A stretch of 64,000 nucleotides of DNA from Pontiella desulfatans (lineage in GTDB: Bacteria; Verrucomicrobiota; Kiritimatiellia; Kiritimatiellales; Pontiellaceae), in the NCBI RefSeq assembly GCF_900890425.1, contig NZ_CAAHFG010000001.1, positions 2,790,001 to 2,854,000 of the forward strand. The letters are read 5' to 3'. This document shows, piece after piece, positions 1 through 64,000 of the stretch (position 1 is the stretch's first letter; each line of letters opens with the position of its first letter). The notes under the pieces are model-generated. The model was given only the letters and a program-made list of their open reading frames with translations, was not told the DNA's origin and did not search any database. The translations under genes and the position numbers were made by a program.

Positions 1-1145
1 GCAACTTTATGACTCAGTAACAAGCGGACATTCAACGGTGAGTCGACCAGGATGTCGCCGTCTTGAATTCTATTGCCGGGAACGACCCTAACCGGTTTTT
101 GCCAGGAATCGCCAAGCCACCTGATGTAACGAACGTGACCGTCATCGTGCCTGAAGAAAAGGTGAGGATTACCATTTTCGTCTACGCGGCATGTGCCATG
201 GTTCGCCCGCTCTTTATTGGTATCGACGATCATGGTGCTTTTATCAGCGACCTCCTTTGTTACGGGAATATCCAATTTCTGGCCCTGGATATTCTGCCAT
301 GAACCATCGTCCGTATTCATCATCATGTAATAATAATTGTAACGGGCATTTGTATGACGGCCCGCACCCGACTTGTCACACAAGTGATAAACATAAGAGG
401 CCGTTATTGTATTATCCTTGCCGGGGGCGAACCATACATACCATGCATCATGCGGGCCCTCATAGCCGGTGTGGGGTTTTGACTTTAGAACGGATTTCGG
501 GGAGGTGAATGTTCTGCCTGCATCCGTAGACTTCTGGTAAACCCAGTCGCTTTGGTGAGAACCGTGACGGAAAAATAAATACAAATCGCCATTCGGCATT
601 TTTACCCATTGGCTGTAGGTACCAAAAGGCGAGATATTCTCGAGTTCCTCCCACTCGGTGATATCGCGGGGACGCTTAGAGACCACGTGGGTCTGTTTGC
701 CTCGGCCCTGAGCACCCTGTGAATTTTCACCTAAAGAAGGAACACCTCCATGACCGCCAAAAGCAAGATGGATATAGCCCTTTGCATCAATAATCATCGA
801 CGGTCTGCCGTGATTATCGACCTTGCCTTCGCGGGTAATCGCATCATATTCCTGCCCCATAAGATTTACACCGGCTTGGTAGGGCCCTGCCCATTTCTTC
901 GCTGAATGCTCATAGGAACACACATAAGGGTCCTCGTGAGGACCCTGGTAGGCTACATAAGTAGTTCCCTCAAAATATTCACCGCTGGGGTGCTGCATGG
1001 TGGCAGTTGGATTGCCATAGCCGTTATCCGTGAAGTACTCCACGTCAGACTCTGCAGCCAGACTAGAACCGGGCTGTGTGATAAATAGGCCTACTGCAAT
1101 TACTGAAAAAATATTAAAACGTACAAATCTCTGTTTCCTGACCAT
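1..1145 (-). CDS. BNR-4 family beta-propeller protein, partial (runs off left edge); candidate polysaccharide lyase
   Basis: The minus-strand frame is open from an ATG at 1145 to the window edge, about 381 codons without a stop. An N-terminal hydrophobic segment ending near residue 30 (LAAES) looks like a signal peptide. The protein matches the propeller half of the gene at 15862-19347 block for block: DNHGRP at about 111, FGGHGG at about 129, RHGSHQSDW, and an aromatic WYVWF block. This is the pattern of BNR-4 (PF15892-type) propellers. The conserved His, Arg and Tyr blocks resemble those used by PL24/PL25 ulvan lyases, which I recall as seven-bladed propellers with paired catalytic His; that assignment is inference. 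A GGGG stretch lies upstream of the ATG. The gene is separated from its neighbour by a terminator, so it is probably its own unit. The reading frame and homology are seen directly. Confidence 0.85.
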   Translation of the reverse strand, partial: MVRKQRFVRFNIFSVIAVGLFITQPGSSLAAESDVEYFTDNGYGNPTATMQHPSGEYFEGTTYVAYQGPHEDPYVCSYEHSAKKWAGPYQAGVNLMGQEYDAITREGKVDNHGRPSMIIDAKGYIHLAFGGHGGVPSLGENSQGAQGRGKQTHVVSKRPRDITEWEELENISPFGTYSQWVKMPNGDLYLFFRHGSHQSDWVYQKSTDAGRTFTSPKSVLKSKPHTGYEGPHDAWYVWFAPGKDNTITASYVYHLCDKSGAGRHTNARYNYYYMMMNTDDGSWQNIQGQKLDIPVTKEVADKSTMIVDTNKERANHGTCRVDENGNPHLFFRHDDGHVRYIRWLGDSWQKPVRVVPGNRIQDGDILVDSPLNVRLLLSHKV

Positions 1146-1227
1146 ATTTATAACCCCATGTATCTAATAAAAAAATAACAGCAATGATTTTCGGTATTTT
1201 GCCGTTGGTGCTCTCGCGCCATCATTA

Positions 1228-1256
1228 TAAAAAAGGGGATCCGAGGATCCCCTTTC
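1228..1256 (-). terminator. Rho-independent terminator
   Basis: A perfect palindrome at 1235-1252 (GGGGATCC...GGATCCCC) is followed, on the minus strand, by a run of T (the A-run at 1228-1234). It lies just past the stop of the secreted-protein gene at 1341. A second GC-rich hairpin (GCGCCTC/GAGGCGC, 1298-1317) sits between the stop and this terminator. Confidence 0.85.
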
Positions 1257-1340
1257 AACTTTTCATGCCTATCGCGTATTCGTGTGTTAAGGGAGAAGCG
1301 CCTCTTGAGGGAGGCGCCTCTTCGGCTCAATCAGGCCGAT

Positions 1341-3434
1341 CTACTCCCCAACAACTCCAGTCTGCAATGACACACCATAGAAGACCTGATCGCCTGCCGG
1401 GACGTCCGCGGCAGGAATGGTGATGACCCCAGACTCAGCTAAGTACACGCCATTTGTGGTCCAGTCCTCGTTAACCAAATCCGTTGTTGCGATAACCGTA
1501 TACAACGCGTCAACCACGCCCGTGCCGCTACTGAGCGTCAACAGATTGTCATCGGAGCCATCGACCGCAACATCCGCTACGGCGAAAGCATATCCGTCGG
1601 GTAGGACACTCGTGGTTGACAGCACCAGATTGCTGATCGTGTAACTGCCCGAAGTCTGTGGAAAGAATGGCGAGTCCCCGGCTGACGCCTCAAAGCCGAT
1701 GCCATTCAAGCTCGTGAATCCTCCCGTGGGCCTAAACGCATCTATACCCCCCATGGCATCCTTTGAGTTAACGTTTGCCCACCAATCCTCGCGGAGTGTA
1801 AATGAAGCGCCCCCCGACACCGTGTTCGATGCGCTGTCTCCCCATGCGATCTCCAAAACGAGCTTATTCGTCTCGATTCTGCTGATGCTTGCCGAATAAT
1901 GGACGACAACAGTGCTATCCGAGATGCCGAAAAAGTCAGCAGCATTGTCGCCGCTCAAGCCAGCATAGAGTGATTCGGCATTACCTGAAGAAGTTACTTT
2001 AGGAATAGCTCTACCAAAGAAGTCGCCCTGTAGGAAGTTGGTATATACGTTTCCCGAGCCGAGATAATCCGTGGCGTGGACATTGGCGTTGGAGAGTTGT
2101 GAATCGCTGGCCATTATTTGGCCGATCCTGATTTGAAAACTCTTGCTTGTATCGGCAGGTCCCCAGGTAGACCGAAAGCCGATTTCGTAGTTGGTGTTGG
2201 TATCGTAGACGTACATATTCCACGAGTTGTTGGATTGCTCGGAGATGTCATCCACAATCATATCAAAATCAAAACTGAACGACTGCCCAATCTGAGAAAT
2301 GTCACTATCGGCGAACGCTTGCAGAACAATGGGATGGCCCGCAGCCTCGCTGGGGTTGATGTCTGGGAGGAACGCGGTGAACCCCGATTCTGACTGGTTC
2401 GAGAGGACAGCTATATTAGTAAGAGATGGGTTGATCAACGTCCAGGTGTCGGTCAACGGCTGTATGCTGGGCGCGACGGAGGTCAGCATCGGAGGACGGG
2501 GGTTGAAGTCGAAGGTCTCGATCTTTAAGTTATCGAAGCCAGCGCCATTTGGGTCGACGGCACCGCGGGTGCCGAAGGCGAGGTAGCACTCGTCGTGATT
2601 CAACACGCGAGTATTACTGATTTCAGCGGCATACGATCCATCGATGTAAACGAAGTAGGTGCACACTGTACCGTTAGCGACGGGACCATCGAAGAAAAAG
2701 TCAACCGTCAGCGTGGATTCGCCATTGACTATTCCCATATACGGAGTCTCAACTTTGCCTACTCCGTTGAAATAGGCCGCGAGGTGGGGGGAGTTCCTGG
2801 CGCCAACACTATTATTCCCCCCGAACGCCGGTCTAATGTCGAAGTACATTGCCCCGGGAGCACCCGTGGAGTTACGGGCGGCTGTAGTGGTATCATAGCC
2901 CGGACGCAGTCCCTTGAGGTTATTAGCAGCGCCAGTAACACCCCAGTTCACCATGCTTCCTGCAGCGATCGAGTTAGATTGATAACAAATACCGAAGCCG
3001 ATAGCTCGATCGAAGACATCGTTCGCAGCGAGGCCGGTCGTATAATGAAACTTGTCGTATGAAACCCGCATGTGGTATTGCCCCGCGAATTCGCCGGAAG
3101 CAACCGTCTCAAGATCGGCCTCGGTAAAGTCATAGTTGAGCCCCGTGGCCACCCAGCCTTGCTCGCAGGCGAAGGTGCCGTTGGTGGTGATCACCGGTTT
3201 GCCCCCCGTTGCCTCTAAGTAGGTGTTCGAGCTTTGGTAGATGGTGCCGAACAACGTACCGGACATGCCGCCGCTCGATTCATCCAGACTAAACGCTTCG
3301 GTGCCGTTGCCGGTGCCGTTGGCTGCGCGTTCGAACGTGTCGTGCCACAATACCGTGGCCTGCCCAGCAAGCGGGAAGGTGATGACCGTCAACATGGCCA
3401 AACACTGTTTGATGATTCTTGTCACTTTACTCAT
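1341..3434 (-). CDS. Secreted LamG/concanavalin-like two-domain protein
   Basis: A 697-residue protein with a clear signal peptide (cleavage near GQA, residue 26). Residues about 28-320 form one lectin-like unit starting WHDTFERA and ending in an ADFFFD-like strand plus GAGFDNLKIE; residues about 330-610 look like a second jelly-roll. The first unit is recognisably related to the N-terminal domain of the sulfatase at 20630-23422, so it is probably a glycan-binding module used by several secreted proteins here. The last 85 residues are a short tail of the kind found on other Kiritimatiellota secreted proteins. The start is supported by AGGAGGAG just upstream. No catalytic motif was recognised. 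The gene lies downstream of one of the conserved TTTAGGTGACATGAC sites. Confidence 0.75.
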   Translation of the reverse strand: MSKVTRIIKQCLAMLTVITFPLAGQATVLWHDTFERAANGTGNGTEAFSLDESSGGMSGTLFGTIYQSSNTYLEATGGKPVITTNGTFACEQGWVATGLNYDFTEADLETVASGEFAGQYHMRVSYDKFHYTTGLAANDVFDRAIGFGICYQSNSIAAGSMVNWGVTGAANNLKGLRPGYDTTTAARNSTGAPGAMYFDIRPAFGGNNSVGARNSPHLAAYFNGVGKVETPYMGIVNGESTLTVDFFFDGPVANGTVCTYFVYIDGSYAAEISNTRVLNHDECYLAFGTRGAVDPNGAGFDNLKIETFDFNPRPPMLTSVAPSIQPLTDTWTLINPSLTNIAVLSNQSESGFTAFLPDINPSEAAGHPIVLQAFADSDISQIGQSFSFDFDMIVDDISEQSNNSWNMYVYDTNTNYEIGFRSTWGPADTSKSFQIRIGQIMASDSQLSNANVHATDYLGSGNVYTNFLQGDFFGRAIPKVTSSGNAESLYAGLSGDNAADFFGISDSTVVVHYSASISRIETNKLVLEIAWGDSASNTVSGGASFTLREDWWANVNSKDAMGGIDAFRPTGGFTSLNGIGFEASAGDSPFFPQTSGSYTISNLVLSTTSVLPDGYAFAVADVAVDGSDDNLLTLSSGTGVVDALYTVIATTDLVNEDWTTNGVYLAESGVITIPAADVPAGDQVFYGVSLQTGVVGE

Positions 3435-3527
3435 TCTGTACTCCTCCTGTTATGGTTTACTATGCGTGCTTCAGTGGGAATCCTTTCCCCACGTTCTGAA
3501 GAGACAGTAACAGCGGACGCCGTCTAT

Positions 3528-3595
3528 GTCATGTCACCTAAACAGATTACACCGCGCACCCATATGTAATTTCGGCTTTTTGACCGAATAACCGG
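3528..3595 (-). promoter_or_regulatory. Conserved upstream element (TTTAGGTGACATGAC motif plus hairpin)
   Basis: On the minus strand the motif TTTAGGTGACATGAC (3542-3528) lies 94 bp upstream of the ATG at 3434. It is preceded by GCGCGGTGTAAT and a small hairpin (TTCGGTC AAAAA GCCGAA). The same order of elements recurs at 6764-6830, and the part downstream of the motif recurs at 25561-25633. Role as promoter or operator is inferred from position and repetition. Confidence 0.6.
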
Positions 3596-3960
3596 CTCTT
3601 CTCGGATGTGCGTTTTTTGAGTAGATACATACAGCGACAGAAAACACCTTATGTCCTGTTCCGCTCCCCTTTATTTCCCGCCGTACGGAACGCGGATCGG
3701 AATATACAGAGGCCAGCCGACGCGGAAGCTCTATAGCAAATGTCTGAGTCTCGACTTTGCTTCAAAATGCTGTAGAACGTGCCTCTCCGCAAAGCGGTGG
3801 GCGCGTGTCCTGCCGAAGAGAACTCGCAGAGGTTTGTCATCCCAAAAACGCACATCCGTGAAGAGCCCGAAAAACCAAGCAGGATAAAGCCTGAAGCAGC
3901 CCGTGGCACATAAAGAGCGGTATCTCTGGCACACCGCAATATGCGAAAAGCGACGTTACA
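3596..3960. other. Intergenic region, no gene recognised
   Basis: About 365 bp between the upstream element and the epimerase stop. The minus strand carries a short open frame (3934-3731) with no start context and no family I recognise; it may be the tail of a decayed gene. No hairpin with a T-run was seen. Confidence 0.4.
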
Positions 3961-5061
3961 TCACTTTGCGCTGAACCTGTAAATAGTCATGGTTTTGTAT
4001 TCTTCGCCTGGATTCAGAATGGTGCTTGGGAAGTTTTTCTGATTGGGGCTGTCGGGATAGTGCTGGGTTTCGAGGCAGAAGCCGCCGCGATTCACATAGG
4101 TTTTACCCGCCTTGCCCTTCAGATTGCCCGCAAGGAAGTTTCCGCAATAGAATTGTATGCCCGGCTCTTGGGTAAAGACTTCCATAAAGCGGCCGGTGGT
4201 TGGTTCGTAGACGGTTGCGGCCAAGGTCATCTTTCCATCCTTATCGCCTTTATCCAGCACCCAGTTATGGTCGTAGCCTAGGCCGTATTCCAATTGCTGA
4301 TCTTTTTTTCCAATATCGCGACCTATGGCCTTGGCCGTAGTGAAGTCGAACGGAGTTCCAGCTACCGGAAGAATCTTACCGGTGGGAATCAAACCGCTAT
4401 CGACGGGCGTGGTCGCCTTGGCATTGATCATCAGTTCGTGATCCAGAATGGTTCCTTCCCCTTCGCCCTTGAGGTTAAAGTAGGTGTGATTGGTCAGGTT
4501 CACCGGCGTCTTTTTATCGGTCGTTGCTACATAGTCGATCTTCAGCTCGTTGTCTTCGGTCAGCGTGTACGTGACCGCGATCTGAAGGTTTCCAGGATAC
4601 CCTTCTTCCCCGTCTTTCGCCAGATAAGAAAGTTTGAGCGCATGGGCTCCGATCACTTCCGCATCCCACACCACCTTATCAAAACCGATGACCCCGCCGT
4701 GCAGGTGATTGGCGTTATTGTTGGTGGCCAGTTCGTACTCTTCGCCATCGATGCTGAATCTACCCAGCGCGATGCGGTTGCCATAGCGGCCGACAATGGA
4801 TCCAAAGTAGGGCTTGTCCACGGCGTTCATATAACCGGAGACATCATTGTAACCCAAGGCGATGTCGGCCATTTGCCCCTCGCGGTCGGTCGTGACGATG
4901 GAAGTCACTGTTGCGCCATAGTTCGTGATTTTGACCGTGGTACCTGCTTTGTTCTTGAGGGTGTAGAGTTTGATGTCATCAAAGTCGGCCGTCTTGACCG
5001 AGGCGCATCCGGCCAGGATTCCGACCAACCCGAGCATTCCAACCCATAGATTTCTCTTCAT
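3961..5061 (-). CDS. galM: Aldose 1-epimerase (mutarotase), lipoprotein
   Basis: Aldose 1-epimerase interconverts alpha and beta anomers of free sugars such as galactose. The 366-residue length is usual for the family. The motifs are present: ITNYGATV near the N-terminus, HLHGG, NLTNHTYFNL and, near the C-terminus, FCLETQHYPDSPN containing the expected Glu base. The N-terminus is a lipoprotein signal with lipobox LAGC (Cys 19), so the enzyme should be membrane-anchored outside the cytoplasm, suited to sugars released by extracellular enzymes. GGAGAG lies just upstream of the ATG. Only 15 bp separate it from the sulfatase upstream (5077-6567), so the two are probably co-transcribed. Confidence 0.9.
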   Translation of the reverse strand: MKRNLWVGMLGLVGILAGCASVKTADFDDIKLYTLKNKAGTTVKITNYGATVTSIVTTDREGQMADIALGYNDVSGYMNAVDKPYFGSIVGRYGNRIALGRFSIDGEEYELATNNNANHLHGGVIGFDKVVWDAEVIGAHALKLSYLAKDGEEGYPGNLQIAVTYTLTEDNELKIDYVATTDKKTPVNLTNHTYFNLKGEGEGTILDHELMINAKATTPVDSGLIPTGKILPVAGTPFDFTTAKAIGRDIGKKDQQLEYGLGYDHNWVLDKGDKDGKMTLAATVYEPTTGRFMEVFTQEPGIQFYCGNFLAGNLKGKAGKTYVNRGGFCLETQHYPDSPNQKNFPSTILNPGEEYKTMTIYRFSAK

Positions 5062-5076
5062 TTCATTCTCTCCTGC

Positions 5077-6567
5077 TTATTTTTTATTCTTCGACTTCTT
5101 TCCATTGTCCGAAGCCTTGGCTTCCGGGTGTGTTGCCAGAATGGCCTTCATGTCAAAAAGTACTTCAGGGCTTGATTGCGCAATATTTTTCTTTTCAAGC
5201 GTATCCATTTTATAATCATACAGTTCATACTCGGCCTCGGTTTCCGGAGCGCCGGGGCGCTTCCATTCCACCATGCGGTAGCGATCGGTGCGGATGGCGC
5301 GGCCGATACGCGGCCCGCGATTGAAGGCATGATAGGCATGATTCCTCACCGAAGCATTCGGATTCTTAAGCACCGGAACCAGACTCATGCCGTCCAGCCC
5401 CTGCGAAACCTTCGGCGTCGGCAAGCCGGCCAGCTCAGCCAGCGTCGGATAGATATCCACCGTTTCCGCATAAGCCATGGTGCTTGATCCCGGCGTCGCA
5501 ACCCCAGGGGCCACGAACATCAGTGGGATGCGGTTGTCCTGCTCATAGTTTGTATGCTTAGTCCACGACCCATGATCTCCAAAGTGCCAACCATGATCGC
5601 CCCACAGCATGACAATGGTATCGTCTGCCATGTCCAGACGATCCAACTCTGCAAGTACTCGTCCAACCTGCGCATCCATATAGCTGAGCGAGGCAAAGTA
5701 GCCATGGATCAGCGTACGCTGCATGTCGTTCGGAATATGTCCCCCATCCTTCGGCACCGGCTTATAGGCGGTCATCTCATGCGCCTTCGGTTTTCCCGCA
5801 TACGAAGGCGCTCCATCCGGAGGCGTATCGCGTTCGGTCAGGGAAAACTGCTCGCTTTGGTAAAGATCCCAATATTTCGTCGGCGCGCAAAACGGAAGAT
5901 GCGGTTTGGTGAAGCCCAGCGCCAAGAAGAACGGCTCTCCGCTTTCCTTGAATTTTTTCAACCGCCTGATGCCTTCCAGCGCAATGCGTCCGTCGGCATA
6001 GGCATCGTCCTTCACATCCGCCTTTTCCCAGGCGGCTCCGCGCTGCAGGTTCCCGATGTTTCCTAGTTGCTCGTTCGCGAAAAGAGCTTCCTCGCGGGTA
6101 AGCTGCCCATCCGTACTTTCTTCGAGGACATAATCAACAACTTTATCGGGATGGAAGGGACTGCTCCACGACGCGGCATCGCCATAATTGCCGTGGCCAA
6201 TGTGAAAAACCTTGCCCACTCCCTCAGCGGTGTATCCGTTCTGCATGAAATATTGCGTCAGCGTGACGGCATCCGGCACCACTTTGCGGAAGCCCTGACC
6301 GAGGCCATACAGGCCGGTTGAGGTCGACCGTAGTCCGACCATCAGGTTATTGCGCGATGGCGCACAAACAGCCTGGTTGCAATAGGCCCGATCAAACCGC
6401 ATACCCCTGGAAGCCAACTGGTCCAAGTTTGGGGAATGTACAAAATCTGATCCATAGGTGCCCAATTCCGGCTTCAGGTCGTCTACCAGAATCATGAGCA
6501 CATTTTTTTTGGCCTGAACTCCCGCCGCCAATACGACGATCGCCATGGCTAAAATCAGTTTTTTCAT
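5077..6567 (-). CDS. Sulfatase, iduronate-2-sulfatase-like
   Basis: A 496-residue formylglycine-type sulfatase (family S1). The start chosen is the ATG at 6567, giving a typical signal peptide (cleavage near VQA, residue 19); an in-frame start at 6618 would bury it. Metal-binding LVDD is near residue 29 and the FGly signature CAPSR begins at Cys 68. HGWHFGDHG in the C-terminal half and the length match the iduronate-2-sulfatase-like group. It should remove sulfate esters from a polysaccharide or oligosaccharide in the periplasm or outside; the substrate cannot be told. It heads a two-gene unit with the epimerase. A conserved motif copy (6764-6778) lies about 195 bp upstream. Confidence 0.9.
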   Translation of the reverse strand: MKKLILAMAIVVLAAGVQAKKNVLMILVDDLKPELGTYGSDFVHSPNLDQLASRGMRFDRAYCNQAVCAPSRNNLMVGLRSTSTGLYGLGQGFRKVVPDAVTLTQYFMQNGYTAEGVGKVFHIGHGNYGDAASWSSPFHPDKVVDYVLEESTDGQLTREEALFANEQLGNIGNLQRGAAWEKADVKDDAYADGRIALEGIRRLKKFKESGEPFFLALGFTKPHLPFCAPTKYWDLYQSEQFSLTERDTPPDGAPSYAGKPKAHEMTAYKPVPKDGGHIPNDMQRTLIHGYFASLSYMDAQVGRVLAELDRLDMADDTIVMLWGDHGWHFGDHGSWTKHTNYEQDNRIPLMFVAPGVATPGSSTMAYAETVDIYPTLAELAGLPTPKVSQGLDGMSLVPVLKNPNASVRNHAYHAFNRGPRIGRAIRTDRYRMVEWKRPGAPETEAEYELYDYKMDTLEKKNIAQSSPEVLFDMKAILATHPEAKASDNGKKSKNKK

Positions 6568-56520: not shown

Positions 56521-57033
56521 TTATTGCCCTCCCGAATGTACGCTCTGTTTGTAGTCTTCCTGCGTGCGCTCGCTTTCGTCCCGAGCCGTTTGTGCGCGTT
56601 CGATCTGCTCCATCAGGAAATCGATGTCACGCAGCGCGGCTTCCTTGGCTTTCACCAATTCGCTGACAGTTTCATCCGTTTCCAACCTGCCACTGGCCTC
56701 GGAGACACGCTCGAGGTCGGATTGATCCGAGGCGGAATGATCCTCCAGCTCACTCTGGAACTCCTGGCTGCCCGACTGCATGTCATCCAGCTCGCCATCC
56801 TGCTGATCGAATACATCGACCGTTATGTTCTCGGCATCCGTTATCGATTGCTCGACCGCGTCCGCCCCCTCGGATGTCCCGCCGAATTCCAGACTGGCCA
56901 ACGTGTCACGGACCGTAGCGACATCCTGCTGAACCTTGTCCAGATCGCCCAGTTTCTCATCCATGTCCGAATTGGAGTGATCGACCGTCTCGGAGATTTC
57001 ACCACGGCCTTTGGTGTCTTTATTTCGTTTCAT
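56521..57033 (-). CDS. Acidic helical protein
   Basis: A 170-residue, strongly acidic protein (rich in Asp, Glu, Ser, Gln) with two predicted coiled-coil segments (MDEKLGDLDKVQQDVATVRD and KAKEAALRDIDFLMEQIERA). It overlaps the end of the ATPase gene by 14 bp. Possibly a partner or cargo of that ATPase; no family recognised. Confidence 0.7.
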   Translation of the reverse strand: MKRNKDTKGRGEISETVDHSNSDMDEKLGDLDKVQQDVATVRDTLASLEFGGTSEGADAVEQSITDAENITVDVFDQQDGELDDMQSGSQEFQSELEDHSASDQSDLERVSEASGRLETDETVSELVKAKEAALRDIDFLMEQIERAQTARDESERTQEDYKQSVHSGGQ

Positions 57034-59812
57034 TTTCGTGCCTTCCTTTCCGCGCTGAAGTCAGCGCTTTGATACGTTCCAACATTGAAACCAGATGCGT
57101 CAGGGCGGCCTTAACGTCCGGCTGCATAACCTCCCGCCACCGTCGCTCCAAGTGATCAATCCACGAGCGCAATTCCGAGCTGAGCGAATCCCGCTCGCAG
57201 TCATCCGGAAGCCATCTGGTGAGTTCAACGTTTTGAAAATACCGAAGCCTCGACTCGAGCCGCCGCCGTAACCCCTCGACTTGCCGGATCAACGCATCTT
57301 TTTCCTTGCGCATACGGGACGCACGTATTTGATGCTGAAACATAGGTAACCGGGCCATGGTGACTGCCACTTCCCGAAGAATGGCTACACGCATATCGTC
57401 AAAATCATCCATGGCACACTGCAGATGAGCTGCCTGATCTTCCATGCGCCGCTCGATCGCAATCAGGAACCAATCATCGTGCTTAATCAGGTCTCGAAGG
57501 GCGGAATCCGTGGGCGGCAATAGATCCAGGTGTTCGTGCAGGTTCACCGTACGGATGCGCTGAGGATAGTGGTAGCCGGGCGCAAACAGATATGCATGCC
57601 CCGGGCGCAGGCGAGCAATCTCCTCGTACTCCGAATCGCCGAAGAGCATCGCGGCGCCGATAGTGGCGCGGTCTTCACTATGGGTAAGCTGAAACGTCAC
57701 CTTCGTTCCGGGATGCTTGACGACTTCCGCCGCTACGGCTGAAGGCATCTGGTCGGCAATAATGATTCCAATACCCAGCGCCCGAAATTCCGCCAGCAAT
57801 CGCGACACGCACTCCGCCGCGTATGCCTTTGGATCCGGAAAATCTTCGGATGGTGCTGCGTCCGTGTTGGTTCCTACGATGTTGTGGGCTTCGTCAATAA
57901 TCAGTACATAGCGCAGGTCTCCATCCGCCGGTGGCATTGAACGTAGTTCCTGTCGGAGCCGCATAAGAATGAAAAGAGTGAGGAAACAGGCATGATCCTG
58001 AGACAGGCGCTCCAGTTCCAGAATGCCCGGAGATCTTAGCAGTTCTGTCATTGAAGGATTATCGCGCCTGCCTTGCAGCACACGCCCCATCGCGCCGCGT
58101 GTCAGACTGTTTAAACGCGTATCCATGGCTCCACGGAGGTCCGAATAGGTTGATGGAGCATAGCCCTTTGCCTGCAAGGCCGCCTCCGCTTCAGCAAGGA
58201 GATCTGTGATGCATGGAACGTCTTCCTCTTTACGGTTCCAGTATACGCGTTCCAAAGCCTCTCTCAGAATACCCGGAAGAGGCCCCGACATTGGCATGAT
58301 TGCCTGGAAACAGGACTCGAGCATGCTGATGTGTTCTTCAATGGAAATCCCTTCAGGAACCTGCAATGGGTTAATCTGAAACGGGGACAACGTGTTATTG
58401 CCTGGTGTGTATATGCGCAGATCCCGCGCCAGATCGGATGCACCCGGATACTCGATTTCTCCGAGCTGCTTGAGTGCCCGTGACTCCGTCTTGACCGGTT
58501 CGATGTGCAAAAAGGGAATCCGCTTCCGCCAGAGGGAAATCAGGAGCGACATCAACAGCACGGTCTTTCCATTGCCGCACATTCCCGACATGAAAAGATG
58601 CCGTGTCAACGTCTTCGGTGAAATACCTCGAACTACATCCCCATTTCTGGTCTCTCCGAGGTCGTCTACTCCGATCGGAATGGTATTGCCTTCCGGCTCA
58701 CACGGAGGATCGGTGTCCCGATTCGCACAGCAAAACGGCCCGGATGTAGCCATGGGCAGTCGAAATATCCCGCCGAGTTCGCTGACGGATGCCGTATTCA
58801 GAAGTTGGGCGAGTTTTTGATATTGCGGGGGTAGTCCCTGAAATCCGTCCGGCAACTCTTCCTCCTTGATAACTGAATTCGACTCAAGCCCGTTTTTTAC
58901 ATTCGTGACGGCGCAGCCGGCGGATCCCAACACCAGCTTGTAGGCGCCCTCTTCGAATGCACTTTCGGCGACCGTTGATGCCAGCAGATGGGCAGTGGCC
59001 GCATCATGTGCAAGTACAACTATGTGGAAGTTAAGCTGTGCGTTTCGAAGACCATCGTGAATCTTCTGATGCATCCGATATGTCTCGGCTGCGCTGGGGT
59101 CGGGATAGCGATGCGGAGCGAGAACCGGCGAATCCATCCGTGCGCGGGGATCATCGGACAATGGATCCATCCGAAAGGCAGGCTCCTCATGCGCATCCCA
59201 ATGGCGGTTGATTCGGGTGACATGTTCAAGATACTGCGTACTGCTGATTCGAAGTTGCTGGATGTCTGCTGGACAAACAGCAATATCCACCACAGCCGCT
59301 TCAGCAAAACCGTCCAGAACACGATCAAGGCCCGAGAAGTCGTTGTCGTCATTCGGTTCAAATGGATTGCAGACGAAATACTGGCCTGGGATGTCGGCAT
59401 TCAGATCGCATGGAATGAGCGGTTCGATAAAAGAATATGAACGTACGATCCGGCAGGCGGCTGAAAGAGAGTCATCCAGAGGTGGAAGCTGATCCTCGAC
59501 CAGAGTGAAGAATTTCGAAACGGAGCCTCGACGTAGAATCGAGGCCACCGCTTCCAATTCAGCACCATCCCCGCCTGAAATATATGGGTATACCTTCAGC
59601 CGATCCCGTACGCCGCCAGCCGTTTGCTCCGGGACATAGACATAGCGCAGCCCTGCCGTTATCGATCCCGGCTTTAGATCAGACACAAACCTTAGAATCT
59701 GTTTCAGGGCATCCCAGGCCGCCCGAACCGGATTTGCGGCCATGGCCCGGAGTCTGGCAGGCCTCGGATCCGGAATGTTTACAAGCAAAAATGCTTTGGC
59801 TTTAGCCAGCAT
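57020..59812 (-). CDS. HerA/VirB4-like ATPase
   Basis: A 930-residue ATPase. Residues 1-400 are a specific N-terminal region. The motor has Walker A GMCGNGKT (410-417), FLHIEPVKTESRALK, LRIYTPGNNTLSPFQINPLQ, and Walker B VLIIDEAH (637-643). These are hallmarks of the HerA/DUF87/VirB4-like pumping ATPases. A 140-residue helical tail ends in a heptad-rich stretch. Start at 59812 has GGAGAGG and overlaps the E1 gene by 11 bp. Being directly after E1 in the transcript, it may be a target or motor of the modification system (inference). Confidence 0.85.
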   Translation of the reverse strand: MLAKAKAFLLVNIPDPRPARLRAMAANPVRAAWDALKQILRFVSDLKPGSITAGLRYVYVPEQTAGGVRDRLKVYPYISGGDGAELEAVASILRRGSVSKFFTLVEDQLPPLDDSLSAACRIVRSYSFIEPLIPCDLNADIPGQYFVCNPFEPNDDNDFSGLDRVLDGFAEAAVVDIAVCPADIQQLRISSTQYLEHVTRINRHWDAHEEPAFRMDPLSDDPRARMDSPVLAPHRYPDPSAAETYRMHQKIHDGLRNAQLNFHIVVLAHDAATAHLLASTVAESAFEEGAYKLVLGSAGCAVTNVKNGLESNSVIKEEELPDGFQGLPPQYQKLAQLLNTASVSELGGIFRLPMATSGPFCCANRDTDPPCEPEGNTIPIGVDDLGETRNGDVVRGISPKTLTRHLFMSGMCGNGKTVLLMSLLISLWRKRIPFLHIEPVKTESRALKQLGEIEYPGASDLARDLRIYTPGNNTLSPFQINPLQVPEGISIEEHISMLESCFQAIMPMSGPLPGILREALERVYWNRKEEDVPCITDLLAEAEAALQAKGYAPSTYSDLRGAMDTRLNSLTRGAMGRVLQGRRDNPSMTELLRSPGILELERLSQDHACFLTLFILMRLRQELRSMPPADGDLRYVLIIDEAHNIVGTNTDAAPSEDFPDPKAYAAECVSRLLAEFRALGIGIIIADQMPSAVAAEVVKHPGTKVTFQLTHSEDRATIGAAMLFGDSEYEEIARLRPGHAYLFAPGYHYPQRIRTVNLHEHLDLLPPTDSALRDLIKHDDWFLIAIERRMEDQAAHLQCAMDDFDDMRVAILREVAVTMARLPMFQHQIRASRMRKEKDALIRQVEGLRRRLESRLRYFQNVELTRWLPDDCERDSLSSELRSWIDHLERRWREVMQPDVKAALTHLVSMLERIKALTSARKGRHENETK

Positions 59813-61124
59813 GATCCTCTCCATTTATTTCGCAATGGGAGAGAAGCTCGCGCACGCCGTCATCGGACAAATCGATATTGGCCTGCTCGGCAAGGTGCTG
59901 GACGAAGTCCCCGCAAACAGGACACGACGGTGCGGCCTCGAAGTTGATCCCGTACCACCGCATTACCCGCATGCCGTCGATTCCGTATCCCAACGGGTCC
60001 CATGATTCGTACTGCGATCCCTGCTCGCGGCGATTCAGCCACAGGTACCAGTTGGCCTCGAGATCCTCGTCCAGCGAGCGAAGGGTGGTGTCCTGGTCCT
60101 TCAACAACTCCTGGAGGGCGAGTTTGGCCGTCATCTGGGCGATAGGCTCGATATCGACCGACAGCCCCGGTTCAATAGGAACCGGTCGGTCCGAATACGC
60201 TATGGTTTCGGCTTCCGGATCGGTGTATGCGGATGCGTCCTTGGCAAGCATCTGCACGAAGCACTGGTAGCAGGCAGACCCCTCGGGTTTCACCCGAAGA
60301 ACCTGGCCCCCGTATGCCCGACGGAACGCTCCACTGATGATCAGAGGTGTTCCCTCCTCTCGGCACACCCGGTTCAGGAGAAGCTTCCCCTCCCGTTGGT
60401 CGCCCGTATCAATGCAGATGTCGGTCTGCCGCACCAGCTCGCGAACAAGATCGATATTTTTATCGCTTGCCTTTTCTTCATATGTCGTGATTTCAGCGTA
60501 CGGATTCTTGTTCCTTACAATGTCCGCCATCGCCTTCGTTTTGTAACGGCCAATGTCGGAGAGTCCGGCTTCGTGGCGGATAACGTTTGCCACCTCGAGA
60601 CGGTCCTGATCCATGAAGATAAACTTCTGAACCCCTGACTGTGCCAATAAACGAATTACCGTGGACCCCACCGATCCGACACCCTTGAAGAATACGGTTT
60701 TATCCGCCAAAACACTCGTCTCTATAAGTCCACGGGCGCGGGAATAGAGTTCTTTCCTAACCGGAACCACTTGAATCCGGCACGGTTGCTCCTTCCCTCG
60801 TTCATCAATAACGGTTCCACTAACCCGATATTTTACACCGTCAATATGTATAACCGCATCCAATTGATTTGATGAATGGTCCGGAGAGGTATCCAGTTGC
60901 ACACATAATTGGATTGGAGCCGTTCTTAAGCGGCTCTGCAAAGAGTCATCCCTGTCAACGAGCTGGATGACTCCTTCAATGGTACCCTCCGCGTGGGCAC
61001 GCGGCCCCAGCGAGGTGAAAACGATGCCATCCCGCACGGTGAACCATACAGGAATGGCATCCCGTTTCCGAACAGCGCGTTCCGCATCGGAACCGTCGAC
61101 AGTAGCGCAAAATTGTGATTTCAT
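59802..61124 (-). CDS. ThiF/E1-like ubiquitin-activating enzyme
   Basis: A 440-residue protein. Residues 1-140 are a beta-rich N-terminal domain. The adenylation domain follows: nucleotide loop GVGSVGS (148-154), FMDQD (170-174), NVIRHEAG, GRYKTKAM with Lys 195/197, and DTGDQREGK. Zinc-type Cys pairs are at 285/288 (CYQC) and 401/404 (CPVC). E1-like enzymes adenylate the C-terminus of a small modifier and pass it to a Cys. The start at 61124 overlaps the stop of the small-protein gene (ATGA). A truncated second copy of its 5' end lies at 61364-61492. Cys 254 (NRVCREE) is one candidate thioester residue. Confidence 0.9.
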   Translation of the reverse strand: MKSQFCATVDGSDAERAVRKRDAIPVWFTVRDGIVFTSLGPRAHAEGTIEGVIQLVDRDDSLQSRLRTAPIQLCVQLDTSPDHSSNQLDAVIHIDGVKYRVSGTVIDERGKEQPCRIQVVPVRKELYSRARGLIETSVLADKTVFFKGVGSVGSTVIRLLAQSGVQKFIFMDQDRLEVANVIRHEAGLSDIGRYKTKAMADIVRNKNPYAEITTYEEKASDKNIDLVRELVRQTDICIDTGDQREGKLLLNRVCREEGTPLIISGAFRRAYGGQVLRVKPEGSACYQCFVQMLAKDASAYTDPEAETIAYSDRPVPIEPGLSVDIEPIAQMTAKLALQELLKDQDTTLRSLDEDLEANWYLWLNRREQGSQYESWDPLGYGIDGMRVMRWYGINFEAAPSCPVCGDFVQHLAEQANIDLSDDGVRELLSHCEINGEDHAG

Positions 61125-61333
61125 TTTCCAGCCTCCTGCCACGAGACGGCACGTGAGTGGCTGACCTTCATGTCTTCAGGTACCACCCTCAGCATGTCTT
61201 TTTTGGCGGCATCGTCAGCCGATGCGACCTCCAAGCGTTTGGTTTCAGGGTTAAAAACCATCATCTGGCTGGCAGTTTCCTTGCCCTGGGCCATGTCACG
61301 CATCATCTGCTGGATTTTCTCTTTGTTGGTCAT
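61121..61333 (-). CDS. Small ~70-residue protein, copy C; candidate modifier or partner of E1
   Basis: A 70-residue protein of unknown family with AGGAGAAT upstream. N-terminal helix (MTNKEKIQQMMRDMAQG), a strand pair (MMVFNPETKRLEVAS), then KKDMLRVVPEDMKVSHS and a C-terminus ending EAGK. It has about 65% identity to copy B (61489-61697) and a weaker match to copy A. It overlaps the E1 start codon. Size and place suit a ubiquitin-like modifier, but I see neither a clear beta-grasp pattern nor a GG end, so the role is open. Confidence 0.7.
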   Translation of the reverse strand: MTNKEKIQQMMRDMAQGKETASQMMVFNPETKRLEVASADDAAKKDMLRVVPEDMKVSHSRAVSWQEAGK

Positions 61334-61363
61334 TTTATTCTCCTATGGTTGTTGTGGTAATTC

Positions 61364-61492
61364 TCAGGCTCCCATCTGAAGCGCCCCCTTTTTAGGCACC
61401 CGCATGGTGAACCATACAAGAAAGCTATCACGCTTCCGGATAGTGCGTTCCACATTGGCACCGTCAGCAGCCATGCAGTACTGTGTCTTCAT
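61364..61492 (-). pseudogene. E1 5' relic left by tandem duplication
   Basis: A 42-codon frame whose first 31 residues (MKTQYCMAADGANVERTIRK, ...VWFTMR) match the E1 start (MKSQFCATVDGSDAERAVRK). At residue 32 it jumps to VPKKGALQM, which matches the end of copy A (VPKDELLQM), and then stops. It starts with an ATGA overlap, exactly as the real E1 does. Confidence 0.85.
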
Positions 61493-61920
61493 TGTTCAGC
61501 CTCCTGCCAAGATGCGGCACATGAGTGGCTGAGCTTCATGTCTTCAGGTGTCACCCTCAATACGTCTTTTTTGGCGGCATCATCGGTCGATGTGACCTTC
61601 AGGCGTTCGGTTTTAAGGCCATAAATCACATGGTTGGAAGCCTGCTTGCCCTTGGCCATGTCGCGCATCATCTGCTGGATTCTCTCTTTGTTCGTCATTG
61701 TGTTCTCCTGTCGTTGTTGATGTGGCAATTCTCCGCGATCCATCTGAAGCAGCTCGTCTTTAGGCACCACCCTTAACATGTTCTTCTTGGTGGTACCGTC
61801 GACCGATGCGATTTCCAGGCGCCTGCTTTCAGGATTGAAGACCAGCCTCTGGCTGGCAGCCTGTATGCCTACCGCAGGACCGGCGCACATCATCTGCTGG
61901 ATTTTCTCTTTGTCAGTCAT
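61489..61920 (-). CDS. Fused copies A and B of the small ~70-residue protein
   Basis: A 143-residue protein made of two related units. Unit A (1-57, MTDKEKIQQMMC...) loses the usual C-terminal SHS...SWQEA part; the frame then reads through the spacer and the ribosome-binding sequence of unit B (RGELPHQQRQENT) into unit B's MTNKERIQQMM. Unit B can probably also be translated alone from its ATG at about 61698. The last residues are SWQEAEQ, and the stop overlaps the E1 relic. A natural two-unit fusion recalls poly-modifier genes, but may simply be an accident of duplication. Confidence 0.75.
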   Translation of the reverse strand: MTDKEKIQQMMCAGPAVGIQAASQRLVFNPESRRLEIASVDGTTKKNMLRVVPKDELLQMDRGELPHQQRQENTMTNKERIQQMMRDMAKGKQASNHVIYGLKTERLKVTSTDDAAKKDVLRVTPEDMKLSHSCAASWQEAEQ

Positions 61921-61962: not shown

Positions 61963-62412
61963 TCACATGAAGTAACCTGAAATCGAACTCCCGTCCTGCA
62001 TGTGTGCAGAGTGGGCGATGCACCACAAATTCCCTTTAAGAATTGGAAGAACATAAGTAACGCTCGCATCCCAGTCACTCGAGGCTGTGTGGCAGATCTG
62101 AACCCTCCCTTCGGGTCCATTACTTAATGTATGGTACGCGTGAGTTGCACCGACCTCGTTTATAGAGCCGCTGGGCATACGAGGCACAATCAGCGGGGCC
62201 CACACGTACAGTGCGGGGCACACCTCGGGAAGGAGGGGGTTGAAGTAAAGCCGCAATTGGTAATCGATGCTGTCCTGCTCACCGGCCACCCACCCCTCGA
62301 AGTAGGCCTCGTCTTCCTTCACCCTAACCATTTGAAAGTGGGGGAAGTGCAATTGCATCAAATACACTTGCATGGCTATTACCATATTAATGCTGTTGAT
62401 GATCGTACTCAT
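61963..62412 (-). CDS. E2-like ubiquitin-conjugating protein
   Basis: A 149-residue protein with the E2 layout: an N-terminal helix, strands (YFEGWVAGEQDSIDYQLRLY), a P-rich turn (FNPLLPEVCPALYV), His 91/His 94 (THAYHTL), then GRVQICHTASSDWDASVTYV with candidate catalytic Cys 107, and a helix containing Trp 130. E2 proteins accept the modifier from E1 on this Cys and transfer it to target lysines. Similar bacterial E2s occur in Bil and other ubiquitin-like operons. AAGGAAA lies upstream. It starts 5 bp after the basic-tail gene. Confidence 0.8.
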   Translation of the reverse strand: MSTIINSINMVIAMQVYLMQLHFPHFQMVRVKEDEAYFEGWVAGEQDSIDYQLRLYFNPLLPEVCPALYVWAPLIVPRMPSGSINEVGATHAYHTLSNGPEGRVQICHTASSDWDASVTYVLPILKGNLWCIAHSAHMQDGSSISGYFM

Positions 62413-62417
62413 GTTAC

Positions 62418-63095
62418 TTACCGTTTTCCTTTCTTGTGCTTGCGCCCCTTGGAGCGCTGTTTCGTTTTTCCTTTACCCCTGCGTGGGCGTGTGCGCCGGA
62501 CTTTCTTTTTGGCTGGGGTGCTTTTACCGGATCGTTTGCGGTCTCCACTGGAGCCTTTGCTGGATACAGCGGTCACCGCCTTACTCTTGCCAGTGTCATC
62601 AGCAGGAGATGAATTGCGTGCCGGAGAGGTTGACTCACCTCCCACGAACGAACACAACCGCGAATAGATTTGATCTAGCCTTAGATCCAATCCGCGGGGA
62701 TTGATCGTCCGGGAGACATCCATGGGTTCATCCTCAAGATCGGTTTGGCAGAGAACAACAGTTTTGCCATCGCCTAAGCTTTGGAAGAAGCCAATCCACG
62801 CAATCCCGCCTCCAGGTAAAGGTATTTCGATGGTAGCGTCACCATCCACTTCGCCAGGGAGAACCTTGACAGCGGAAGCCACCGGGTCAGGAAGCGAAGC
62901 AATTCCCTTGGCGAGCGATTTCAGTTGAGGGCAAGGATCTATGGAAGCCTCATTAAGGGTCGATGCGTCAGTATGCCCGGCATATTGGCACCCGTAGCCC
63001 TTATGAGGGGATAGCACCATGCTCCCTAACAATCGTTCGCGTATAGGGCTCATTTCCGAAAGCGGAACAAGTTCTACTGGTATAGGTTTCATCAT
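62418..63095 (-). CDS. Protein with Lys/Arg-rich C-terminal tail
   Basis: A 225-residue protein. The N-terminal 150 residues hold a compact domain with IEIPLPGGGIAWIGFFQSLG and KTVVLCQTDLEDE, unassigned. The last ~65 residues are low-complexity and very basic (TPAKKKVRRTRPRRGKGKTK, ending KGKR), resembling histone-like or nucleic-acid-binding tails. The start MMKP at 63095 is set by AGGAGGTTC. Lying between JAB and E2, it could be a modification target or an RNA/DNA-binding adaptor (inference). Confidence 0.75.
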   Translation of the reverse strand: MMKPIPVELVPLSEMSPIRERLLGSMVLSPHKGYGCQYAGHTDASTLNEASIDPCPQLKSLAKGIASLPDPVASAVKVLPGEVDGDATIEIPLPGGGIAWIGFFQSLGDGKTVVLCQTDLEDEPMDVSRTINPRGLDLRLDQIYSRLCSFVGGESTSPARNSSPADDTGKSKAVTAVSSKGSSGDRKRSGKSTPAKKKVRRTRPRRGKGKTKQRSKGRKHKKGKR

Positions 63096-63102
63096 GAACC
63101 TC

Positions 63103-63654
63103 CTATCTGTATATGTATGCGTTAATGGTGACATTGCCCTTTGAAGGGCTCATTGTGGTGATCAGCTCGACAAAGGTAGGGATGCAGTTTTTGGCCATAA
63201 TTGAGCTGGCAGACGCAATATCCCCCATACTTGGGCGACGAAGCCCCATGACGTGGTGCGAGTGCCATCGCCCGATAAAACAAAGTCCAAACCGCTTATA
63301 GATCTTTTCGCTGCAACGCCGAAAATAGTTGATATCCTGAATGAACGTTGCAGTGGAATGCACGGCTTGTGGACCAGGTGGCGTAGCCAGCATAACAATC
63401 GGCGTTCCGCTCCCAGTGTATGCCCCGTAAAGGTGTCCCCCGGTCTCGGTATCGCCCCACTCTAATGTATTGCAACGGATGGATTCGATTTCCGAGCGGT
63501 GAATTAGGATTCGCTCTTCCTGTTTAACCTCATCGCAGGCATAGTCACATTGCAGCGTCTTAATACCAACGAGAGCGGAGTCGTGCGTAGATTTTTTGCC
63601 CGGAAGCCCCTCGTTCGATGGCTTCCATAATCCCAGACTATTTTGTGTCTTCAT
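63103..63654 (-). CDS. JAMM/JAB (Mov34/MPN/PAD-1) isopeptidase-like protein
   Basis: A 183-residue protein. After a 45-residue leader the JAB domain begins ILIHRSEIE. The JAMM residues are Glu 70 (DTETGGHLYG), His 131 and His 133 (GRWHSHHVMGL), Ser 142 and Asp 145 (RRPSMGD). The His-to-Ser spacing is one residue longer than in Rpn11. JAB proteins cut isopeptide bonds or trim modifier C-termini using zinc. It is the first gene of the visible operon. The ATG at 63654 (AAGGGCAAGAG upstream) is favoured over an upstream extension to 63795 that lacks domain similarity. Confidence 0.88.
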   Translation of the reverse strand: MKTQNSLGLWKPSNEGLPGKKSTHDSALVGIKTLQCDYACDEVKQEERILIHRSEIESIRCNTLEWGDTETGGHLYGAYTGSGTPIVMLATPPGPQAVHSTATFIQDINYFRRCSEKIYKRFGLCFIGRWHSHHVMGLRRPSMGDIASASSIMAKNCIPTFVELITTMSPSKGNVTINAYIYR

Positions 63655-64000
63655 CTCTTGCCCTTTCTGCTTGCTAGTTTCGCTGAATCCGAACACCGCA
63701 GTGCGGAGCTCGATCACGTGAGCAAGAGTAAGGGGACAGAAGCGGCAGTTGTCGATTGTGGGTGCCAGTTGTAACTCCCCAAGGTAACTCCCCAAACCTC
63801 ACGGTGAAGGCCGGGGATCCACCTCTGGAGACTACGTCAGGGAGTCGCAGGCGCGGGAAAGCCGCAAGGGGATCTCAGCAAGAAACCGATTGTGCGAGTC
63901 ATCACCGGACTCAGATGGCCCAACACGGAAGGAGTGCACATAGCCATACAATTCCGGAAACTGTGGAGTCTCAACATAATCAACAAGGACGGACAGGACT
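63655..64000. other. Upstream region of the operon, no gene recognised
   Basis: About 345 bp at the window edge. A short tandem repeat (GTAACTCCCCAAG GTAACTCCCCAAA) is at 63767-63793. A plus-strand frame is open from about 63840 to the edge (KPIVRVITGLRWPNTEG) but matches nothing I know. The operon promoter may lie here. Confidence 0.35.

Follow-up and report, generated by a model that had tools for sequence, protein, structure and literature searches.

Background

Bacterial operons that combine JAB, E2-like and E1-like proteins have been described as groups 6a-6e of Iyer et al. 2006 and as Bil/Bub systems (PMC1779556, PMC11354881). In type II CBASS, Cap2 and Cap3 supply the E1-E2 and JAB parts, and the C-terminus of the CD-NTase is conjugated (PMC10097602). 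The window analysed here, a 64,000-nucleotide stretch of Pontiella desulfatans DNA, shares with the former the presence of all three proteins in one operon and with the latter their E1, E2 and JAB chemistry, as predicted from genes. Its small genes next to the E1 expose an undescribed candidate E1-partner domain that follows a single clade of E1 enzymes into three types of conjugation or defence operon in bacteria. In effect, the window is a natural experiment, in which the putative partner was copied and one copy alone appears to have stayed constrained after the last duplication. Its analysis further sets right an attractive but poorly supported claim, namely that the small genes encode modifiers.

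The operon and its island

Minus-strand genes follow the order JAB, JAB C-terminal part, E2-like, A-B, E1 stub, C, E1/ThiF and HerA/FtsK-like ATPase (Table 1). The ThiF/E1 domain retains its ATP-site and zinc cysteines, with adenylation core and zinc site intact. A comparison for a conserved catalytic cysteine besides the zinc ligands showed conservation only of Cys285, 288, 401 and 404; at another position 43 of 50 relatives have a Cys where the window E1 has Asp. The catalytic Cys of the E2 and the JAMM motif are both intact. Where relatives have one JAB protein, the window has two ORFs, which overlap at 63103-63134 and are read in different frames.

The operon belongs to an integrase-flanked island (41998-63834) with an AEP primase, TraD-like and HerA-like ATPases and a Ser/Thr kinase whose top PADLOC match is mad6. 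In its make-up it resembles a mobile island for conflict or defence. Essentially no further copies of the closest system were found in 780 genomes of two phyla and no relative among viral contigs; the sole good relative on plasmids was a CBASS-like locus of Bradyrhizobium.

Table 1. Positions of the operon genes, the small-domain copies and the duplicated units within the window
Feature	Position	Strand	Evidence or remark
Acidic coiled-coil protein, end GGQ; alternative modifier candidate	56521..57033	-	
HerA/FtsK-like ATPase, island member	57020..59824	-	Orthologs in L037 and L038
E1/ThiF-family adenylating enzyme, 440 aa	59802..61124	-	Pfam ThiF 8.6e-33
Duplicated unit, second copy	61030..61402	-	Self-comparison
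Copy C, small domain directly before E1, apparently the constrained copy	61121..61333	-	ATGA overlap with E1
E1 stub ORF, 42 codons, TGA at 61364	61364..61492	-	
Duplicated 373-bp unit, first copy	61403..61775	-	Self-comparison
Copy B, 3' half of the A-B ORF, with ribosome site and ATG of its own	61489..61698	-	
Copy A, small candidate E1-partner domain, older copy, no stop	61721..61920	-	HMM 4.6e-20; A/C dN/dS 0.23
E2-like protein	61963..62412	-	Cys107 invariant, 38/38 relatives
JAB protein C-terminal part as separate overlapping gene	62418..63134	-	Single gene in relatives L033 and L038
JAB/JAMM peptidase	63103..63795	-	Full motif E102, H178, H180, S189, D192

A 373-bp tandem duplication

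Self-comparison of the region detected a direct repeat, roughly 370 bp long and 78.8% identical; its E value of 5e-85 rules out a chance repeat. Gapped alignment of 61775-61403 with 61402-61030 gave 291 identical columns out of 368 and two 3-bp indels. The 373-bp tandem duplication is real: the copies lie adjacent and head to tail, and one junction links the unit ends. Each unit starts with the GTGCCTAAA (VPK) codons of copy A, continues through B and its ribosome site and ends at about E1 codon 31, with one break point within the 3' end of copy A and the other at E1/ThiF codon ~31. At the junction, ...TGGTTCACCATGCGG (also written ...TTCACCATGCGG) is followed directly by GTGCCTAAA..., joining E1 codon ~31 to A's VPK codons, and this linking of the unit ends produces the order A-B-E1 stub-C-E1. 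The sequence-only reading had described the scar well: the duplication of B with its ribosome site and ~31 E1 codons, the join between E1 codon 31 and the VPK codons, and the resulting gene order with a truncated E1 relic are all borne out by the repeat, its break points and the junction sequence, as one tandem event that also takes in A's tail.

DNA identity between the units differed by part, at 83% for the B/C coding region, 73% for the stub and the E1 5' end, and 75% for the A tail and ribosome site. At the protein level, B and C share 47 of 69 residues (68%) and stub and E1 17 of 31 (55%), so the earlier estimate of about 65% was fair. The accompanying statement that all frames remain open holds for B, the stub and C; it overlooked the absence of a stop in A, which reads on into B. 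The A-B ORF (61489-61920, 143 aa) begins with A at 61920, in frame with B. A GGA codon in A corresponds to a TGA in the copied tail 3' of the stub, which suggests that A may have lost its stop. Copy A is the older duplicate, with a DNA identity to C of about 75% and a dS of about 1.2.

Within the stub ORF, 61492-61403 corresponds to E1 codons 1-30/31 and 61402-61364 to the copied A tail. The junction between B and the stub retains exactly the ribosome site and ATGA overlap of the C-E1 junction, which could point to a job of its own for the peptide, for instance as a leader coupling C translation to B or as a decoy for the N-terminal domain of E1. We regard such a function as very improbable, since the stub encodes only the first strand-helix-strand of an E1 domain and its divergence resembles that of the untranslated tail.

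Selection on the copies

Comparison of A and C gave a significant dN/dS of 0.23 (p=3e-5); copy A was constrained over a longer period. The sequence-only reading had further proposed that selection keeps the extra copies, and for B this claim fails. Between B and C, dS is 0.32 and dN 0.20, and the resulting dN/dS of 0.62 does not fall significantly short of 1 (Fisher p=0.13); the stub/E1 ratio of 0.55 is not significant either. When B-C differences were polarised with A, a single distant outgroup with near-saturated synonymous sites, B carried 21 nonsynonymous and two synonymous changes and C one and five (Fisher p 0.001). The FNPET turn, a family motif, is kept in C and reads YGLKT in B, which has thus lost the FNP turn motif. 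Together with the 21:1 skew in nonsynonymous changes, this argues for constraint on C and for relaxation or diversification of B.

Selection on all copies as distinct paralogs, with B under diversifying selection, would fit the open frames, the in-frame indels, the low A/C ratio and the excess of nonsynonymous changes on B. However, two synonymous changes out of 23 on B are compatible with neutrality (p 0.09, binomial test). Neutral simulation gave a chance of about 0.2-0.5 for B and 0.5-0.7 for the stub of keeping an open frame without selection, so open frames are weak evidence of selection and chance alone likely preserves them. With one copy in most relatives as well, we consider selection on every copy improbable. 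Since the 373-bp duplication, clear constraint is suggested by these substitution patterns for C only, and B appears to be drifting or diversifying.

The small domain in related loci

Scanning bacterial genomes with an E1 alignment yielded 47 loci, with about 45 related loci encoding the small domain either directly 5' of E1 or as an N-terminal fusion to it. This arrangement holds across several phyla, and only one of the E1 loci examined departs from it. It is a separate gene in Bacteroidetes, Fibrobacter, Kiritimatiellae, Puniceicoccaceae and Phycisphaerae, and is fused in alphaproteobacteria, Acidobacteria, some planctomycetes and one Bacteroidales. The domain is ~57-85 aa long and falls into two sub-types that match each other profile to profile (E 4e-9). 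No family for it was found in Pfam, NCBIfam or PADLOC. The small domain is thus an undescribed family travelling with one E1 clade.

Most loci contain a single copy. L037 carries the domain both as a separate gene and fused to E1, the two pairing in the tree (0.86), and in L076 two small-domain genes lie in tandem; these independent gains show that the gene duplicates elsewhere too and that copy number changes repeatedly. The L037 locus (1-5932) has its E1 without JAB or E2 immediately upstream. Copies A, B and C of the window group together in a weakly supported clade (0.64), and their particular duplication was seen nowhere else among the loci examined. Related loci carry homologous, not unrelated, genes at the same place, so the independent origin named in advance as counter-evidence to the duplication did not appear.

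Ten loci of alpha-, acido- and cyanobacterial type have, after E1, a CD-NTase with the conserved end ...LFGxxFGQ/A, and a SAVED/Cap4-type nuclease close by; in L052, small domain, E1 and CD-NTase form a single protein. The CBASS-like loci (L040-L052 and L032) have separate JAB and E2 genes, the small domain at the E1 N-terminus and a CD-NTase ending in FGQ/A, with the SAVED/Cap4 nuclease. Because CBASS conjugates the CD-NTase C-terminus (PMC10097602), by analogy the CD-NTase is likely the substrate in these relatives and the small domain part of the enzyme.

Fold and the modifier question

The AF2 model of copy C (pLDDT 77, pTM 0.55) consists of a helix, a two-stranded hairpin, a short helix, a short strand and a helix, and contains no beta-grasp fold. 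Against solved folds it gave no Foldseek match at E<=0.001 and no VIA match at Z>=2; a ubiquitin-fold modifier was rejected for want of a structural match. PDB profile matches to designed Kelch repeats reflect a shared hairpin turn, not homology. No window copy has a C-terminal glycine and none is conserved: the copies end in AGK and AEQ, and A, reading through into B, lacks a C-terminus of its own.

The label of candidate modifier genes given to the small genes is therefore not supported, in view of the missing ubiquitin fold and C-terminal glycine and the fusion to E1 in many relatives. They could still be modifiers of another fold, whose C-terminus E1 would adenylate, E2 conjugate and JAB remove, with several copies representing several modifiers. 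Their position next to E1, the lack of another universal candidate gene and the CBASS precedent of a substrate without ubiquitin fold (PMC10097602) speak for this. In Bacteroidetes, moreover, the separate small protein ends in ...MTxEGFA plus 0-5 variable residues, and such a conserved GFA with a variable tail would also fit a processed modifier. Against it stand the N-terminal fusion in several lineages, the unconserved or read-through C-termini of the window group, and the conserved end that in CBASS relatives belongs to the CD-NTase instead. We judge such a modifier unlikely; the role is unproven and less likely than that of an E1 partner.

A hairpin motif, M-x-L-x-Y-N-x-x-T-G-x-F-E, opens several operon proteins downstream of E1, as it does the small pre-E1 protein. 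It is N-terminal in 14 other operon proteins from 11 loci (L057, L058, L061, L068, L069, L074, L075, L076, L078, L079 and L081). With the small proteins included, it occurs in 33 of the 376 ORFs that lie near E1 on the same strand, versus none of 343 others, a set that includes spurious ORFs. The recurring hairpin is an apparent shared N-terminal tag, and its recurrence, with the EGFA ends of Bacteroidetes, would be compatible with a role as tag or modifier. A rather doubtful extension is that the small proteins are a new non-ubiquitin-fold modifier class or a recognition tag, with the NPxTG hairpin marking Bacteroidetes operon proteins as members of the conjugation system. A second possible candidate for a conjugated protein is the acidic coiled-coil protein, which ends ...HSGGQ, with orthologs ending ...SAGGGQVT (L038) and ...AATRGK (L037), three sequences in all.

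A candidate E1 partner

On balance, we lean slightly towards the small domain being a partner of E1/ThiF in JAB-E2-E1 operons that was copied by chance, leaving C as the working copy, B drifting and the stub as a by-product. An older duplication gave copy A in the window lineage, and the 373-bp event then produced the present order. The domain may dock on E1 and help with uptake of a client or substrate or its hand-over to E2, a job probably done in the window by C, which adjoins E1. The A-B protein would be an older, partly decaying double-domain protein, with B drifting after loss of its hairpin turn motif, and the stub would be debris that at most carries ribosomes from B to C.

We count for this partner reading the position of the domain before or within E1 at all loci but one, the profile match between the two sub-types, the CBASS-like loci in which the domain is part of E1 and the CD-NTase has the conserved end, the repeat with its break points, the polarised changes, the window clade (0.64) and the gains in L037 and L076. 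Counted against it are the modest confidence of the small domain in the fused-E1 model (pLDDT about 50-72), the GFA end in Bacteroidetes and the single saturated outgroup.

Comparison with known systems

As in an ordinary tandem gene duplication, the window has a head-to-tail unit, one novel junction and diverged copies. It differs in that the break points fall within two adjoining genes, which created the E1 stub, and in that copy A additionally reads in frame into B. Unlike the Iyer groups 6a-6e and Bil/Bub (PMC1779556, PMC11354881), in the window no ubiquitin-fold protein was found, and its small gene has no Pfam, NCBIfam or PADLOC family. Compared with type II CBASS, E1 and E2 are separate proteins in the window, an extra small domain accompanies E1, and no CD-NTase was detected: the window proteins searched against Pfam or PADLOC gave no SMODS match. 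A CD-NTase is present in relatives such as L040 and L048, and in the same-clade loci L040-L052 it and a SAVED/Cap4 nuclease adjoin the E1 operon, as in type II CBASS.
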